DNA of 46,214 nt. Source: Acanthamoeba castellanii str. Neff. Its lineage: Eukaryota; Discosea; Longamoebia; Acanthamoebidae. Made by a program: the position numbers and the translations under genes. Where the stretch lies: NCBI RefSeq assembly GCF_000313135.1, contig NW_004457518.1:378286-424499 (forward strand), given 5' to 3'. Shown here in pieces: positions 9,563 through 30,600 of the stretch (position 1 is the first letter of the stretch; each line of letters begins with the position of its first letter). The notes beneath the pieces were generated by a model. It saw nothing but the letters and a program-made list of their open reading frames with translations. It made no database searches and was not told the origin of the DNA.

Positions 9563-11011
9563 ATGAACGCCGACGATGACCTGGGGGCCATCTTTGGCAA
9601 CCCCAAGGAGGACAGTAGCGAGGACGAGGAGGAAGTGGAGGCCGCGGCACCCTCGGTGAAGATCGTGCCGGTGACGACGGCTCAGGCCAAGACCAAGCCT
9701 GCCGCGGCATTCGACACGCCCGAGCCCAGCAGCCCCAAGGGGGGAGTCCATCAGTTGCGAAAGCGAGGGAAGAGCGTGAGCCCCAAGAGGAAGCTCCAAT
9801 TTGGCAGTGATTCCGAAGAGGAGAAGAAGGCCGAAGATGCCGCACCCAAACCGAAGCGAATCGCCAAGCGCAAGAGGAGGGGCACATCCCTTCCCACTGC
9901 CCCCGTCTTGACCGTAACGGCTCCTTCTTCTGAAGATGACGATGCTGGCGCTGGCGAGACACCTCGAAGATCGCCTCGCAAGCCGCCGCCCACCAGGCGC
10001 TTCGACCCAGCCAAGGCCGCTAAGAAGACGCGAGGGAGGCTCGCAGCCAAGCGCGAAGAAGAAGACGAGGAAGAAGAGGAGGAGGATGAACGACGCAGCC
10101 GAAAGAAGCAGAAGCAGGCAAAAGCGAAGCCGAAGAAGGGAAAGAAAGCCGACACGAAGAAGAAGAAGAGTGGCAAGGCGAAGAAGGAAAGCGATGAAGA
10201 GGAGGCGGAGGCAGACAGCGACGAGAAGGATGAGGACTTCGGGGATCGGGGTGTGCAGACGAAGAAGCGAAAGACCAGCGGCAACGCCAAGTCGCCCAAG
10301 AAGAGGTCTCCCAAAAAGGTGAAAGCTGACGAGAACGCGATCAACGTGCGCCACCTCTCTCTCTCTCTCTCTCTTTGTGTGTCGTGTGTCGTGTGTCGTG
10401 TGTCGTGTGTCGTGTGTCGTGTGTCGTGTGTGTGGTGTTGTGTGCGCACTGCAAATCTGCTGACGCTCGCTCTCTGCGATCCCTTGAATCAATCGGCTGC
10501 AGACCAAGGTTGAGCAGGAGGTGGAGGCGCTAAGCGAGTACTTTGCCGACATTGATGATACGCCCCTGGAGGAAGAGGAACCGCCCGGCACGAAGTGGGT
10601 CTCCATGGTACACTCTACATTCTATTCACTACACTTGCCCACCCACTCCCGCCAGCGAAGAAGACCTATACTTCATCTAACGCGTTTACATTGCTTTCCC
10701 GACTCACGACGATCTCGTAGCCCACGCTCAAGAGCCCTCAGCGCCTTGAGCGGCTGTCTAAGTATCCCACCATCGCCAAAGACTATGACGAGTACAAGAA
10801 AGGTGCGCTGGATGCTCCAAGGGTGGTCCTTTCCATCCACCGATCACATGGATGGCCATTTGATGAACACCACGGCTGATACCAACGCGCCTCTGGCTCG
10901 TCTCTTGTTGCTAATGCAGCTCTCACCGAGGCGCAGGTGAGCCCGGCTCCGATCACGGAGTTCGTCAAGGACCTGGAGGACAAGCGCCTTGAAGCTGTCA
11001 TCCAGCCGTAG
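9563..11011 (+). CDS. Charged KEKE-type, probably nuclear protein
   Basis: Four exons (9563-10345, 10503-10607, 10721-10802, 10920-11011) give 353 aa ending at TAG 11009-11011. The first 261 residues are low-complexity, with alternating acidic runs (EEEDEEEEEEDE), lysine-rich runs (KKGKKADTKKKKSGKAKK), SP-type phospho-sites and several basic clusters that would act as nuclear signals. The C-terminal 90 residues look folded and helical: VEQEVEALSEYFADIDDTP, TLKSPQRLERLSKYPTIA, ITEFVKDLEDKRLEAVIQ. I do not recognise the family, and a chromatin or nucleolar role is only suggested by composition. The first intron carries CT and GTGTC microsatellites. Exons 2-4 recur after the assembly gap with only synonymous differences. 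Confidence 0.72.
10362..10440. repeat. Intronic microsatellites (CT)n then (GTGTC)n
   Basis: A CT tract is followed by about six direct units of the form GTGTCGT inside the first intron of the charged-protein gene. It lies between donor 10346 and acceptor 10502, so it does not alter the protein. Such tracts are prone to length change and misassembly, and the assembly gap lies 570 bp downstream. Confidence 0.85.
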
Positions 11012-11012
11012 A
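10457..11012 (+). repeat. Copy 1 of a 556-bp duplication ending at the assembly gap
   Basis: This segment matches 11757-12312 base for base at a constant offset of 1300, with about eleven substitutions and no indels that I can see. It holds the last three exons of the charged-protein gene. The right end is exactly the first N. The three exon differences (GTT/GTC, TCT/TCC, TAT/TAC) are all synonymous. Confidence 0.9.
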
Positions 11013-11756
11013 NNNNNNNNNNNNNNNNNNNNNNNNNNNNNNNNNNNNNNNNNNNNNNNNNNNNNNNNNNNNNNNNNNNNNNNNNNNNNNNNNNNNNNNN
11101 NNNNNNNNNNNNNNNNNNNNNNNNNNNNNNNNNNNNNNNNNNNNNNNNNNNNNNNNNNNNNNNNNNNNNNNNNNNNNNNNNNNNNNNNNNNNNNNNNNNN
11201 NNNNNNNNNNNNNNNNNNNNNNNNNNNNNNNNNNNNNNNNNNNNNNNNNNNNNNNNNNNNNNNNNNNNNNNNNNNNNNNNNNNNNNNNNNNNNNNNNNNN
11301 NNNNNNNNNNNNNNNNNNNNNNNNNNNNNNNNNNNNNNNNNNNNNNNNNNNNNNNNNNNNNNNNNNNNNNNNNNNNNNNNNNNNNNNNNNNNNNNNNNNN
11401 NNNNNNNNNNNNNNNNNNNNNNNNNNNNNNNNNNNNNNNNNNNNNNNNNNNNNNNNNNNNNNNNNNNNNNNNNNNNNNNNNNNNNNNNNNNNNNNNNNNN
11501 NNNNNNNNNNNNNNNNNNNNNNNNNNNNNNNNNNNNNNNNNNNNNNNNNNNNNNNNNNNNNNNNNNNNNNNNNNNNNNNNNNNNNNNNNNNNNNNNNNNN
11601 NNNNNNNNNNNNNNNNNNNNNNNNNNNNNNNNNNNNNNNNNNNNNNNNNNNNNNNNNNNNNNNNNNNNNNNNNNNNNNNNNNNNNNNNNNNNNNNNNNNN
11701 NNNNNNNNNNNNNNNNNNNNNNNNNNNNNNNNNNNNNNNNNNNNNNNNNNNNNNNN
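11013..11756. other. Assembly gap (744 N)
   Basis: A run of undetermined bases joins two contigs. Both flanks are the same 556-bp sequence, so the gap may be an artefact of two haplotype contigs that should overlap. Nothing can be said about its contents. Confidence 0.95.
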
Positions 11757-12312
11757 CTGCTGACGCTCGCTCTCTGCGATCCCTTGAATCAATCGGCTGC
11801 AGACCAAGGTCGAGCAGGAGGTGGAGGCGCTAAGCGAGTACTTTGCCGACATTGATGATACGCCCCTGGAGGAAGAGGAACCGCCCGGCACGAAGTGGGT
11901 CTCCATGGTACACTCTACAGTCTATTCACTACACTTGCCCACCCACTCCCGCCAGCGAAGAAGACCTATACTTCATCTGACGCGTTTACATTGCTTTCCC
12001 GACTCACGATGATCTCGCAGCCCACGCTCAAGAGCCCTCAGCGCCTTGAGCGGCTGTCCAAGTATCCCACCATCGCCAAAGACTACGACGAGTACAAGAA
12101 AGGTGCGCTGGGTGCTCCAAGGGTTATCCTTTCCATCCACCGATCAAATGGATGGCCATTTGATGAACACCACGGCTGATACCAACGCGCCTCTGGCTCG
12201 TCTCTTGTTGCTAATGCAGCTCTCACCGAGGCGCAGGTGAGCCCGGCTCCGATCACGGAGTTCGTCAAGGACCTGGAGGACAAGCGCCTTGAAGCTGTCA
12301 TCCAGCCGTAGA
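11757..12312 (+). repeat. Copy 2 of the 556-bp duplication, starting at the assembly gap
   Basis: This copy begins at the first base after the Ns and repeats exons 2-4 of the charged-protein gene (11803-11907, 12021-12102, 12220-12311) with its stop at 12309-12311. It lacks the first exon in this assembly. It is either the second allele or the surviving 3' end of a tandem copy whose 5' part lies in the gap. The unbroken frame and purely synonymous exon changes favour an allele. Confidence 0.88.
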
Positions 12313-12514
12313 GCTGCTCAGCGTCCTCCCGTGTGTACAAAAGCAAAGCGGACAACTAACGACCTGTTTCCTTTCCACACTCTTTCGTCTTTATTTCGTT
12401 TCGCGTTTGGTTTGCGTTTGGTTTGCGTTTGCGTTTCCTTTTACAGTTTGGTTTTCCTTTTTCAGGGCCGGTCTCTTCGACGGACTAGTCTGTCGAGAGC
12501 TGTTCGTACACGCC

Positions 12515-23827: not shown

Positions 23828-25553
23828 TCACCACTCGAGGAGGTCGAGCACGTCCTGGGCCACCGCGGCGATCTTGGCGTTGGCGGACGCGCGGTGACGA
23901 TGCACGAGCTTCTCCAGCGCCATCTCCGTCACGAACGTGGTCGACTCTCGGTCACCGTACATCTGTTGTCAGCGCCGCAAGAGAGAATTGTGTCAGACTC
24001 CGCCTGGGAGACGCTGGGCGGGATTATACCAGTGTGCCCAGCGAGATGAGCAGCGGGTAGAGCGTCTCGGGGTCCTCCTCACCCTGTAGCATCTGCAGCG
24101 GGAGGCATGTCAACACAATCGATTGCGCGCGCATCAGAGAAGAAGGTGGTGCGGCTCGCAGGTACCTGCTTGATGAGGGCCAGGGCGCATCGTTTGCCGC
24201 TGGTCATCGTCGTATCATCGCACAGGATAGAGGAGAAGCTGCCACGACGAAGGAGTAAAGGCGCGAAGGTTGTGATTAGCCGAAGGACCAATCGCGTCGC
24301 AGTGGAGTGGAGTGGGCGGAGGGTGTACTTGAGCACGACGTTGGCGACGGGCAGTTTGATGCGTTGGTCCTTGGTGTCGGCCAGCGGCGTGAGGGAGTCC
24401 AGGATCTTGGCGGCGTTCTGCGCTGCGACGTTCTCGCAGGCCGGGTGGGCGAACATGTTGGCGAAGAACTTGAGCGCGATCATGCAGTTGGCCTGCGGGT
24501 TCTGTGCCGAAATCTGCGAACGAACGCGCAAAACAATAACAACAGCGACAACCACAACAGCACAATCAGCATGCGCGAACAAGGCCAAATGTGGGCGATG
24601 ATGATGACGACGATGATGGTTGATGATGTGTCTCACCTGCAGGCGCGCGAGAAGGTCGTCCAGGAAGCGCGGGCTTCGGCTGTGCGCGGTCACGTAGTGC
24701 TCGGCGGCTCGTGGGTGCAGGATGAGCAGTCGGTGAATGTCCAGCACCGGGAACAGCTTGGCGGCGGGCCAGCCCAGGAATTTGTCGATGAGCGTGAACT
24801 CGGATTCGCTGAAATTTGTGGTGGCGTACGCCGCCGTATCGCGGAGAGTGTTCAGCGTTCTGCTGATCAGTTCGAGCTCCGCCGCACTGGCGCTGTGCTT
24901 GCCCATAGCCTGCGTGTGTCGGTGGTGTGTGTGTGTTGTGTGTGTTGCGTGTGTGTGTGTAGTGTGTGCGTGCAGGTCACCGGACACGATGATCAGTTCG
25001 CCGACACTGTGAAACTGCAGAAGAGGAGAATCGCGCGTACCGCGTCCCCGAGGAACTCGGTGTTGAACTGTAGTAGCTTCTTGTGGATGCCGTCCAATTG
25101 TCCCTGCGCATAAAGCACCGGCGCTCCTCGCTGTCCGCGCGAGCCAAGAGAAGGAGTGGTGAGCGCCAGCAGTGGTTGCTCGTGTGTCGTGTGTGTCGTG
25201 TCTAACGTGAACTGTACCCTCTTGGGGACGTGCTGGCAGATGGGCAGTGGGGCGACCGACGGCGTGACGGGCAGCTCTGCCGCCGATGCATCCACTCGGG
25301 GGCTCTTCTGCTTCTGCTTTTGCTTTTGCTTCTTCCCCTCCTCGTCGTCTTCCTCGCCGTCGCCCTCTTCGTTGTCGTCCTCCACGCCGTACTGACTCCG
25401 GGCCAGCTCCTCCATGATAAACCGCAGCGTCTTCTTGGCCAAGAGCTCCACCAGCTGGTCATGCTTGTCGTATCCCACGCCCTGCTCATCAAGGAACGCC
25501 TTCACCACCGTCGGAATGTCATCTGCAGGTGTGTTGTGTGTGTTGTGTGTGTG

Positions 25554-25602
<49 letters not shown>

Positions 25603-27433
25603 GTGACGCCATGTGTGAGTGGCACGGGAGAACGATGGTTGACAGCTTTCTGAGAAAGAGAGGCGCAGTCGTACCTTGCTTGTTCCAGGCGATGATGCGC
25701 GGAATGGAGTCGCCGAGGTCGGCGTAGCACATGATGTCCCAGACCTTGCCCCGCCACACGAGCTTCTCGGTGCGGGGTCGCTTGGCCAGGTCGCGCTTGA
25801 TCTGCTCCTCGCGCTCCCTCTTCATCCTGTCAACCAGCTCCAGGATCTTCTTACGCTGGGCGTCCTCCTCCTTTTGCTGCTCCTTCTTCTTGTCCCTGGA
25901 AATTAAATGAATTAATCATATTTTGGCCATGCGCAACACACACGACACACGACACACATGACACACACGACACATGACACACATGACACGACACACACAA
26001 CACGATCTCGCATCATTTGAGATGTGGGAGGCAAGCGTACTCGATGTACTTCTTGAGTTGGGTCAGCGCCTCTCGCTGATCTCTGGTGCTGTCTTCGCCG
26101 TACTCTCCCTCCTCTTCTTCGTCCATTTCATCTTCATCTGCGACGAGCAACAACAGAAAGACATTTCTTACAAGTCAGCACTAACACCGTGGTGGCTTCA
26201 TCATCCGCTCAACACCGGTGATCAGCCCGCGTACCGTCCAGCTTCTTCTCCTTCCCCTTCCCTCGGGGGCTCTTGGCGGCTTGCCCTGCGACAGCCCCAA
26301 CATATGAGGAATTAGTCACTATTAATAAATATAAATATAAATAATAAGCATACCGGTGAAGGCGCGGGACATGAGCTGGATGAGCTCCTCCTTCTTCTGG
26401 CGCTCGATGCGCTGCTCCTCGAGCTTCTTGAGCAGCGGCGGGTCGATAACGGGCGCGTCGAAATGGAGGTAGTCGGCGTAGGTCTCCCCGGCGGCGAGCG
26501 AATTGGGGAAGGCGGGCGCGAGCGCGGGCCACTGGACCGCATCGCGGTCGGCGATCTGGACCAGCGGCACGTAGTGGTTCTTGGCGCGGCTCTGCCAGGC
26601 CAGGATCAGCGGCCGGTGCCGGCACCTGGCGCGGCCCACGCGCGACGGCACAAAGGTGGCCGCCACGCCCGACTCGCCCTGGCCGAACTTGTCCATATCG
26701 CCGTCGTTGGCGTAGATGACGATGGGCCGCGCGATCACGTTGGACAGGGCGAAGATGTGCATGAACTCCAGGTAGGACCCCGACTTGCCGGCGTTGTCCA
26801 GGATGCGCTTCCAGTCCTCCTCCCCGAACTGCGGAGCCACCTTGCAGTACCACTCCGCGTTCGCCCGCAGCTCCTCGTGCATGCGCTTGCGCAGCAGCTC
26901 GTTGAACACCTGGCGGGGGCAAAGGTGTGGTGTGAGAATTATGTTATCTATCAATCTATTTATTTATTTTGTTAATTTCATTTATTGTTATTTATTACGA
27001 TTTCTTCTTCAGTTTGTATTCGAAGAAATGGAAAAGAGGAAAGAGAGTGGAAAAGGTGAGCGAGTAGAGGGGGGGGGCGGTACCTCAACGCCAAAGAGGG
27101 CGCGGGAGATGGCGTGGAGGAGGCAGTTGCCGTCGCCGGTGGTTCGGAGCGGGATGAGGTTGGAAGGGAACTGCTCCGCCAGGCTCTGGGGCAGGTTCTC
27201 AGCCTGTGTAATAATAATAATATAAAGAATATTAATAAAAATAAATACACTAATCAAAAAAGATGGATCCACCCCCATGACAGTACCGTTTCCCAGTCGA
27301 CCAGCTTGTTGAGGGCATCGTCGTCCATGTAGCTGATAGGAACAAGGAAGGTGGTGTCGCACGACGGAAGCGCTTCCTCCTTCTTCCCGAACAGCATGCA
27401 CCACTGACAGTTGCACGTGGTGTCGTCCATCAT
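23828..27433 (-). CDS. OTU deubiquitinase fused to PFU-like and PUL domains (PLAA/Doa1-type C terminus)
   Basis: Fourteen exons, nearly all joining in phase, give 780 aa (ATG 27433, stop 23828). Residues about 50-250 form an OTU cysteine protease domain. GDGNCLLHAISRALFG carries the catalytic Asp/Cys motif, FMHIFALSNVIARPIVIY is the middle strand, and LAWQSRAKNHYVPLV carries the catalytic His in NHYVPL, as in A20/VCIP135-type OTUs. A charged linker follows. Next is a PFU-like block (GDSIPRIIAWNKQ, DDIPTVVKAFLDEQG, QLVELLAKKT) and then a PUL armadillo domain: LYAQGQLDGIHKKLLQFN, FLGWPAAKLFPVLDIHRLL, NPQANCMIALKFFANMF, LYPLLISLGTL. In PLAA/Doa1 the PFU domain binds ubiquitin and PUL binds the tail of Cdc48/p97. 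Here the WD40 propeller is absent and an OTU domain takes its place. Role inferred: a Cdc48-docked deubiquitinase. The exon 9/10 donor (GTGTCC, near 24987) is less certain. Confidence 0.85.
25540..25602. repeat. Long intronic (GT)n / (CA)n microsatellite
   Basis: More than 20 GT dinucleotides with occasional TT interruptions lie inside the intron between the WNKQ and DDIPTVV exons of the minus-strand OTU-PFU-PUL gene. In the transcript the tract reads (CA)n a short distance downstream of the donor. Related TGTGTT tracts occur in the intron near 24915-24970 and ACACGAC repeats near 25934-26005. Confidence 0.88.
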
Positions 27434-27652: not shown

Positions 27653-30600
27653 TCAGAGGCGAACAACCGTCACCGTCACGTTATCTTTACATTCTTTGTT
27701 GTGGAGCGCCACCTTCAGCAGGTGCGCCGCCGCCTCTGCCGCCGGTCGCGTTCGCACCAGGTCGAGCGCTCTCCTCCCCGATATCACGTCCCATAACTGT
27801 AACAGAGTCATGGGTGGTGTGCGTGATGTTGATATGATGTTGTTGATGTTGTTGGTGTTGGTTAGCCTGGTTAATAGCGATGAAGGCTTCGACGTCGAGG
27901 TGCACGTACCCCGTCCGAGGCGAGGATAAGGTGGGTATCGTCGGGGGTGAGCTTGATGGCTTCCGAGATGTAGGGGACGGCGATCATGCCCGACTCGTTG
28001 TCCTTCGCAAAGTGATCGCCGAGCGCTCGCGTGATGGCGATGCCGCCGCCTATCCGCGTCTGCCCTTCGTTCACGTCCACGCCCGTCCTCGTCATGCGCT
28101 CCCGCTCCTCCTCGTAGGCCAGCTTGTGGTCCCGCGTCAAGGCCACCACCTTGTTCCCGCAGCTGCGCAGGTGACCAAGGAATCAACCAATGGTCAGGCA
28201 TTGGTCTGGGTGGGCGGGGGTCTAGTCATCATGAGTGTTGGGGCAAGGGGTACGCACTTCATGAAGGCCGACGAGTCGCCCGCGTTGGCGGCCTGCACGT
28301 ATCGATCGCTGCCGTACCGCCAGACGAGCACGACGGTGGCCGTGCAGCCCTCGTACTCGAACTGCGACATCTTGTTGTCCACGCTCATGAACGCCAAGTG
28401 CAGCAGCTCCGTGGCATCTTCCTGGGGCTCTCCGAGCCGCTTCATATGCGCCGTGATTTGCTGTGTGCCCATGACGTTGCGCAATGTCAGCCACATATCG
28501 CCATGGAGCAGACGACATCATGCATGAGGAGGAGAAGCGGCTTTACCTGGGGCATGAGGCCAATAGCGGCGTTGGAGGCCTCTTTGCCACCGTGACCATC
28601 AAAAACGCAGAACAGGGCGTGCTCCGGCTTGTCACCCAGGGGCACATGTTCGCAGTGCGCGTCCTGGGTCGGGGCGAGGGGGCGATACCAGCCGTCAGCT
28701 CCGAAGCACGCACCGTAGCTGTGATGGGAGGGAGGAGCACCTCTTGTTGTATGGCGTCCTTCTTGGCCCGCTGTAGACCGGGTTTGTTCAGGTCCTCCAC
28801 GGCACAGTACTCCTGGATCAGCAGGCTGCTGTCCCGAGGCAGCACCTCGTTGTCCTCCAGCTCTCGAAGGAACTCTTCCTCGTCTCCGTCTTCGCTCACC
28901 ACGGACAGCCTCGTCGACGACGCGACGTCGCTACCGGACGACTCCAGGTCCACCTTCTCCTTGCCCGGCTCCGTCAGCTGCAGGCCCTTGGCCGCGTCGT
29001 CCAGCTGCTTGAGCAGCTCGTCCTTGGCGGTTTCCGTGTGCCCCATCGTTCGGAACATGTCGAACGTGTTGCCCTCCGTGGCCGGAGGCGCCGCACTCGG
29101 CAATCCGATATTTCCATTTCCGTCTGTACACCCAGCCGCCCACCGCACTAAAGATCAGCGCGCCGACAGGGTCGGAGAGGGAGGAAGGGGTTGAACGCAC
29201 TTGAATGGACGCCCTTGATTCGGGCTCGCCTGCCCAAGGAGCCATTGGGAATTTGGAAGTGCTCCTCGTCCTTCCCCTCTGTGTACAAAGTGACGACGGG
29301 GCGTTTGAATGGTGTATGCGAGTCTCGAATGAAAGTGGTGGATGGGGGTACCTTCGCCGCCCGGCGCCAGGTGGCCATAGTTTTCCTTGGGTTTGATGAG
29401 GACCTTGGCCTTCTGTCCGGGGGCCGCTCCCGTGAGGAGCGTCTTCAGGGACGTGAGCTCCACGAGCACCTTCTTCCACTCACCTTGGCCTGTACAGCGC
29501 CAACGTTGTGGGAAAGTGTGAGCGGGATGGTATATCGGTTGTGTAGAAGTGTGCGCGTGGGGAATAGTGGGTACCGAAGCCGAGCTGCCCGAGAGGATTG
29601 CCGCGCATGTCGAGTTCGTCGAGGTTCTTGAGTAATCGGAAGTGATCGGGAAGATCCACCAGGCGGTTCGACATCAGGTGGAGCTTCTTGAGACTGGGTG
29701 CGAGGTTGGTGATGGACTGGGGGATCTCCGTGAGGTTGTTGCACTCGACCGACAGCACCTCGACCTTGGGCAGCGTGGTGAGCCCTTCGGGGAAGCTTGT
29801 GAACTTGTTGTAGCCAATGCAGAGCTCGATCACATTCTTGAGTCGGCTCAGATCCGTGGGGATGTTCGTGAGCAGATTGTTACTGACATCCACCTTCTCC
29901 AGTTGCTCGAACTCCCAGAACTGCGCCGTTCATAGAACATCGATGCAAGTGAGTACTCATTCATAGCCCGTCAGTGGTGGGTAGGACATACCTCGGGAGG
30001 CAGCGTTCGAATGAAGTTGCCGGCGAGTCGCACCATCTTGAGACTGCGCATACGGCACAGGTCGGAAGGGACGCTGGCGATGAAGTTGTAGGAGAGATTG
30101 AGTGTGTGGAGCTCGTGCATGCCCACGACGGCAGTCGGGAATTGGGCGAGGCGGTTGCTGTTGAGGAACAGCTTGGAGACGGCCTTGAGCTTGGCGATGG
30201 ACTTGGGCAGCTTGGTGAGGCGATTGTTCTGGACGTCGAGGATGATCAGCTTGGAAAGCTTGTCGATGCTCTTGGGGAGCTTGGTGAGCAGGTTGTGGCT
30301 CGCCACCAGCACCGTCAGGTTCGTAAGCTTGACTGCGCGCGAGGCAACACGATTCGTATGAGCGTGGCACGCAATGCAAAGTGGTCCAGCGCGGCTAGAG
30401 AAGTGGAAGAGGAAGAGGAAGGGGAGAGGCGGGTTGGCGGTACCAACGTCGGACGTGAGCGAGGTCAGCTTGTTGGCGTGAACGTCGAGGATTTGGAGCG
30501 TGTTGCGCGAGAAGAGCGATTCCGGCAGTTCGGTGAGGTCCTGACGGCTCATATCGGCCTGGAAGGAGCTGTCGCCCATCATCGACCACATGGGAGTCTC

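Follow-up and report, generated by a model that had tools for sequence, protein, structure and literature searches.

The stretch of Acanthamoeba castellanii str. Neff DNA considered here, 46,214 nucleotides of contig NW_004457518.1 and termed the window, carries on its minus strand a gene whose predicted product joins an OTU deubiquitinase domain, a PFU-like block and a PUL domain in one chain. VCPIP1-type OTU enzymes on the one hand, and PLAA/Doa1 with its PFU and PUL domains on the other, are treated as separate cofactors of the Cdc48/p97 motor. The fusion gene is examined below with respect to its structure, the subtype and ancestry of its domains, and its possible docking on Cdc48.

Gene structure and domain content

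The gene and its parts, all located on the minus strand of the window, are as follows.

27433 (ATG) to 23828 (end of stop codon), minus strand: OTU-PFU-PUL gene, 13 exons, 771 residues, from the spliced frame and Pfam
26667..27137, minus strand: OTU domain, residues 72-170, Pfam 4.8e-12, with intron 27083-26910 inside; coordinates from exons
26553..26579, minus strand: end of the OTU domain, with His201 in NHYVPLVQI (residues 200-208); from the sequence, coordinates from exons
25825..26353, minus strand: OTU-PFU bridge, with introns 26353-26286, 26234-26138 and 26040-25896; coding score +55
26285-26235, 26137-26041 and the initial portion of 25895-25675, minus strand: bridge exons, encoding a charged, coiled-coil-like linker
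25428..25774, minus strand: PFU-like core, residues 365-429, Pfam PFU 0.026, split by the phase-1 intron 25674-25523
23852..25121, minus strand: PUL domain, residues 503-764, exons 8-13, Pfam 4e-41

The gene model was assembled by hand from splice signals and then translated. All 12 introns are GT-AG and a single reading frame runs through the 13 exons. The initial annotation had placed the start and the stop exactly, and the two introns to which it pointed correspond to 26353-26286 and 25674-25523 of the model. Its single spliced frame also holds, with the length of the product corrected from 780 to 771 residues, while its description of the introns as in-phase is loose, since the phases are mixed and the lengths of 8 of the 12 introns are not multiples of three. 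Between the recognised domains, residues 216-362 are 46% charged. A Pfam scan of the protein revealed no WD40; it also gave a chance-like Neur_chan_memb match (E 0.45). The N-terminus, encoded at 27359-27433 on the minus strand, has cysteines in close succession (CNCQWC, with another one further on) and is possibly metal-binding.

One gene or two

The architecture would be artefactual if OTU and PFU-PUL belonged to two neighbouring genes that had been wrongly joined, and the evidence bearing on this lies mainly at the junction. Exons 4 and 5, together with exon 6 up to its first methionine, comprise 73 codons that score +55 in the frame linking OTU and PFU, as against -15 for the best of 20000 non-coding draws; the non-coding pool amounts to 1.7 kb including the intergenic gap upstream, the draws overlap and the pool also trained the background, so that the comparison provides a ranking and not a probability. 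In the linking frame the scores of all exons are positive, and the two remaining frames score below zero in all but one of the 13 exons, exon 4 yielding +1.4 and -2.9. The frame is maintained across the three GT-AG introns at the junction, where the unspliced region 26353-25896 contains 5-7 stops in each frame, and the best split would leave 28 bases between the two genes, compared with 219 from the stop of an upstream PP2C-like gene to the start of the fusion gene.

Two genes would be favoured by the stop that follows if intron 3 or intron 5 stays unspliced, and the preference of our simple gene finder for joining does not speak against them, since it favours joining even over true boundaries. 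The joined-versus-split score was 13.1 at the test junction, 13.2 and 4.4 at true gene boundaries, and 29.8 and 15.2 within genes, and it was dropped as evidence because joining was also preferred at the two true boundaries. The same finder merged the fusion gene with the PP2C-like gene, and Doa1 with a proteasome subunit; with different training, it placed its best cut at 26130. A gene model that had been trained without the codons and splice sites of this gene, and bootstrapped from loci parsed by a model that did use them, correctly placed all 12 donors and 9 of the 12 acceptors. It is chiefly the junction coding test that leads us to reject the two-gene artefact, which we regard as highly improbable. 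A single gene encoding OTU, PFU-like block and PUL without WD40, as was originally proposed, is supported by the spliced frame, the Pfam matches and the junction coding score.

The OTU domain and its subtype

Asp73, Cys76 (codon at 27125-27123) and His201 are all present, within GDGNC and NHYVPL, and the Pfam match is far beyond chance, in accordance with the intact OTU domain annotated earlier. Asp73 is the counterpart of the catalytic aspartate of OTU enzymes. Comparison of the whole protein with PDB sequences yielded 19 hits with E values no higher than 1, for which the best value per protein is quoted here. The best match for the OTU domain was VCPIP1 (4.8e-18, 67.9 bits, residues 43-210), extending through the histidine stretch NHY[VI]PLV.I and aligning Cys76 with VCPIP1 Cys219. 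The other matches were to OTUD7B (4.5e-16, 61.4 bits), PLAA (2.9e-15), A20 (4e-10), ZRANB1 (7.6e-9) and OTUD5 (0.01), and Otu1/YOD1, which has PDB entries, was absent from the 19 hits. On sequence similarity, therefore, the OTU domain groups with VCPIP1, OTUD7B and A20 and is VCPIP1-like, not Otu1-like, and the comparison originally drawn with yeast Otu1 and Doa1 took the wrong OTU subtype. Weighing against a specific link to VCPIP1 is its modest lead over OTUD7B, just 6.5 bits in pairwise scores.

Searches of the genome (38.4 Mb, 250 contigs), in which an Acanthamoeba profilin I sequence finds a 98% match, were consistent with this assignment. A 489-residue fragment of human VCPIP1 matched this gene only, through two exon matches limited to the OTU stretches, and the stalk and VCPID of the same query had no match in the genome. 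Human YOD1 revealed no convincing gene, with a best E of 0.08 at C94, in a search run exon by exon which a heavily split YOD1 gene could escape. An OTU family search listed five matches of seven candidates, one of them being this gene, and the remaining four predicted genes, judged by eye only, look OTUD5-like or are without assignment. With the OTU domain of the fusion gene as query, its own two exons were recovered together with one weak place, at C169 (E 0.04). At C34 (L023) the gene finder links an OTUD5-like OTU with a calponin-homology-like region (named by eye), and this join may represent two genes because the finder merges neighbours.

The PUL domain and its relatives in the genome

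The presence of PUL in the C-terminal half, inferred earlier from the letters alone, is confirmed by a Pfam match that is far beyond chance and covers positions 6-277 of the 277 in the model. Among PDB sequences the domain is closest to PLAA, with a match to 3EBB over residues 565-769. A PUL family search of the genome produced four matches at three places, namely this gene (C99), C146 and C75. The proteins at the latter two were predicted with the gene finder, their starts being picked by eye. That at C146 (L017) has the order WD40-PFU-PUL and is taken as Doa1, and that at C75 (L018), on the minus strand from 2998 to about 5194, is a thioredoxin-PUL protein (Pfam thioredoxin 2.1e-22, PUL 9.4e-28). 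Contrary to the earlier suggestion, the WD40 propeller has not been replaced in the organism, given that a separate WD40-PFU-PUL Doa1 is encoded elsewhere in the genome. The Doa1 gene adjoins a proteasome beta-subunit-like gene (named by eye) on the same strand.

The three genes share intron sites within PUL. One intron, at alignment column 340 and in phase 2, is exactly common to all three, and two further phase-0 sites lie within 2 and 4 columns of one another across the three genes, near alignment gaps. Three other PUL introns of the fusion gene are not shared with Doa1 or thioredoxin-PUL, and an intron at column 242, phase 1, which is exact in those two genes, is missing from the fusion gene. 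The fusion PUL aligns with 30.7% identity to Doa1, 23.2% to thioredoxin-PUL and 23.0% to human PLAA, and 16 columns are invariant across the four aligned PULs. Because of the intron sites and sequence identities, a Doa1-like gene is the most likely ancestor of the PFU-PUL half.

The PFU-like block

The block ahead of PUL is strongly diverged, and several results weigh against its being a PFU. In the whole protein Pfam PFU gives E 0.026 and 15.2 bits, relative to a cut-off of 26.2, and for the 82-residue segment by itself the values are E 8.4e-4 and 19.9 bits, still under the cut-off. The match is confined to the second half of the model, its first approximately 43 positions remaining unmatched, and BLASTP of the segment against the PFU of the genome's Doa1 gave no match. 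No PFU chain was found when the segment was compared with PDB, and searching the genome for the PFU family, with E values of up to 1 admitted, turned up the Doa1 locus alone. The PFU-like block of the initial annotation is thus seen as a match that falls short of the Pfam cut-off.

Two results favour a PFU origin. A small PFU model built from three sequences (yeast Doa1, human PLAA and the genome's own Doa1) scored 12.4 bits on the segment, a value equalled in none of 2000 shuffles, 1577 of which gave any score; against the whole protein it scored 6.4 bits, with 1 of 2000 shuffles as high. Moreover, in an alignment that took no account of introns, the intron of the segment and that of the genome's Doa1 PFU fall at column 37, in phase 1 in both. 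By an arithmetic estimate, with one intron each and about 57 aligned codons, an exact match would arise by chance roughly 1 in 170 times. Because of the shuffle result and the intron shared in column and phase, we take the block to be a diverged PFU core.

It could instead be a charged coil, or the counterpart of the VCPID of VCPIP1, which likewise forms a hairpin followed by two helices, as described in part of PMC12394548. The subthreshold score and the failed BLASTP comparison fit such an origin. However, 518 of 2000 shuffles reached the PFU score of VCPID, a Pfam search of VCPID detected no PFU, and the intron of the block coincides with that of the Doa1 PFU, such that we consider a coil or VCPID counterpart very unlikely. 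Accordingly, VCPID as a PFU relative that would explain the middle block is unsupported.

Evidence for and against docking on Cdc48

The C-terminal tail of human p97 contributes Leu804 and the penultimate Tyr805 as key contacts with PUB and PUL domains, and PLAA Lys554 occupies a position similar to those of PNGase Arg55 and HOIP Lys99, according to sections of PMC5389986. These three basic residues presumably contact the p97 tail. In the fusion protein the counterpart of Lys554 is Lys517, which is kept in all four PULs and is among their invariant columns, as is Arg589 (PLAA Arg618, yeast Doa1 Arg541); the FPxLD motif is also kept. Arg541 and Arg669 of yeast Doa1 were reportedly described by Zhao in 2009 as Cdc48-binding residues, and a numbering offset for yeast Doa1 which we take to be 290 places them in the DIVRL and YRL motifs.

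The genome also encodes a possible partner. Two matches came from a search for the Cdc48 family; at the stronger of them, C78, the predicted protein ends NDEDLYGN, and this tail appears suitable for PUL, resembling that which PUL binds. There are two PUB-domain loci in the genome, and the Cdc48 tail is therefore probably shared among cofactors.

A number of observations count against docking, the main point being the incomplete conservation of the putative docking residues. Pro719 occupies the position of PLAA Arg744, which chain numbering equates with yeast Doa1 Arg669, and only 10 of 27 basic PUL positions of PLAA are basic here. The genome's Doa1 and thioredoxin-PUL carry arginine at the positions of both Arg589 and Pro719, and Pro719 is unique to the fusion PUL among the four compared. 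In addition, the amoeba Cdc48 has its tyrosine at the third position from the end instead of the penultimate one. A Pfam scan to E 1 found no UBX or UBX-like domain in the fusion protein, and VIM, VBM and SHP patterns did not match it, so that no tether would be visible if PUL does not bind.

Pro719, together with the divergence of the domain (approximately 31% identity to the genome's Doa1), favours a single protein whose PUL no longer binds Cdc48 and which acts as a free deubiquitinase, or whose PUL has another partner. Against this stand the nearly complete Pfam match, the retention of Lys517, Arg589 and FPxLD, and the suitable Cdc48 tail in the same genome, and we consider a non-binding PUL rather unlikely. 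Docking on Cdc48 through PUL is judged to be plausible from the suitable tail and the residues retained, with Pro719 as the contrary sign.

A proposed role at the p97 exit

Most p97 cofactors reach the motor via its N domain, as stated in a portion of PMC5389986. For VCPIP1, PMC12394548 and PMC11538695 report that its UBX binds the N domain of VCP and its VCPID two D2 domains, that its catalytic domain sits near the place where the VCP pore ends, and that VCPID supports its activity. Since the p97 tail bound by PUL emerges at the same end as the VCPIP1 OTU, the fusion should place its OTU in about the same position by another anchor. We favour, with some reservation, the interpretation that the product is a VCPIP1-like OTU deubiquitinase tethered at the p97 exit through PUL in place of UBX. 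PUL would hold the protein on the C-terminal tail of Cdc48, beside the pore exit, and take the role played in animal VCPIP1 by UBX and VCPID; the PFU core would hold the ubiquitin chain, the long charged linker would give reach, and the OTU domain would trim or remove ubiquitin from clients leaving the motor.

Likeness to VCPIP1/VCIP135 lies in the OTU subtype and in the expected place at the C-terminal end of p97, whereas the fusion lacks a detected UBX (Pfam) and any VCPID or stalk match, and would have PUL as its anchor. With PLAA/Doa1/Ufd3 it shares a complete PUL, a PFU-like core ahead of it and intron sites common to the genome's Doa1, but it differs in the absence of WD40, the OTU at its front, the strong divergence of PFU and the loss of the Arg744 counterpart. 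Thioredoxin-PUL similarly carries an enzyme-like domain on PUL, and no more than two columns separate each of three PUL intron sites from its counterpart, one being exact; in contrast to the fusion, however, the domain is thioredoxin and no PFU was found by Pfam. Otu1/YOD1, finally, is an OTU enzyme that works with p97 and PLAA but belongs to another OTU subtype and carries a UBX-like domain that Pfam did not find in the fusion protein. PLAA acts together with YOD1, UBXD1 and p97 in clearing damaged lysosomes, as parts of PMC5559722 relate, and an OTU joined to the PLAA half therefore makes functional sense.

More tentatively, the gene may be the Acanthamoeba counterpart of VCPIP1, with the same OTU subtype and a PUL anchor derived from a Doa1-like gene, a suggestion that we offer as possible but doubtful. 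If correct, a deubiquitinase at the p97 exit would be a position that evolution has filled using different anchors, and the genome would use one protein instead of separate VCPIP1 and Otu1. The fusion unites in one chain a deubiquitinase with a domain of the type that docks on the C-terminal tail, whereas most p97 cofactors use the N domain, and it links VCPIP1-type OTUs with PLAA, which are separate cofactors in reviews, including the sections of PMC5559722 that deal with them. It offers a natural test case for asking whether the removal of ubiquitin at the p97 exit suffices for function.

The OTU-PFU-PUL architecture did not appear among the titles and abstract openings listed by searches of the openly licensed PMC literature, and exact phrases for the domain order matched no paper there, which agrees with, but does not prove, the earlier statement that no named family with this order is known. 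Viral and prokaryote contig collections, which say little about other amoebae, gave 409 and 221 (viral) and 286 (prokaryote) pattern matches, none of which was confirmed as a relative.

Neighbouring features of the window

Upstream of the fusion gene, at 27653-28182 on the minus strand, lies the C-terminus of the PP2C-like phosphatase (named by eye), separated from the fusion-gene start by the 219 bases given above. More distantly, the region 10500-12350 contains an N run (roughly 11000-11700) with the same coding stretches on both flanks, and minus-strand open reading frames from 10606 and 11906 are identical in their first 50 residues. The repetition of coding stretches on either side of the N run suggests a local assembly duplication around this gap.

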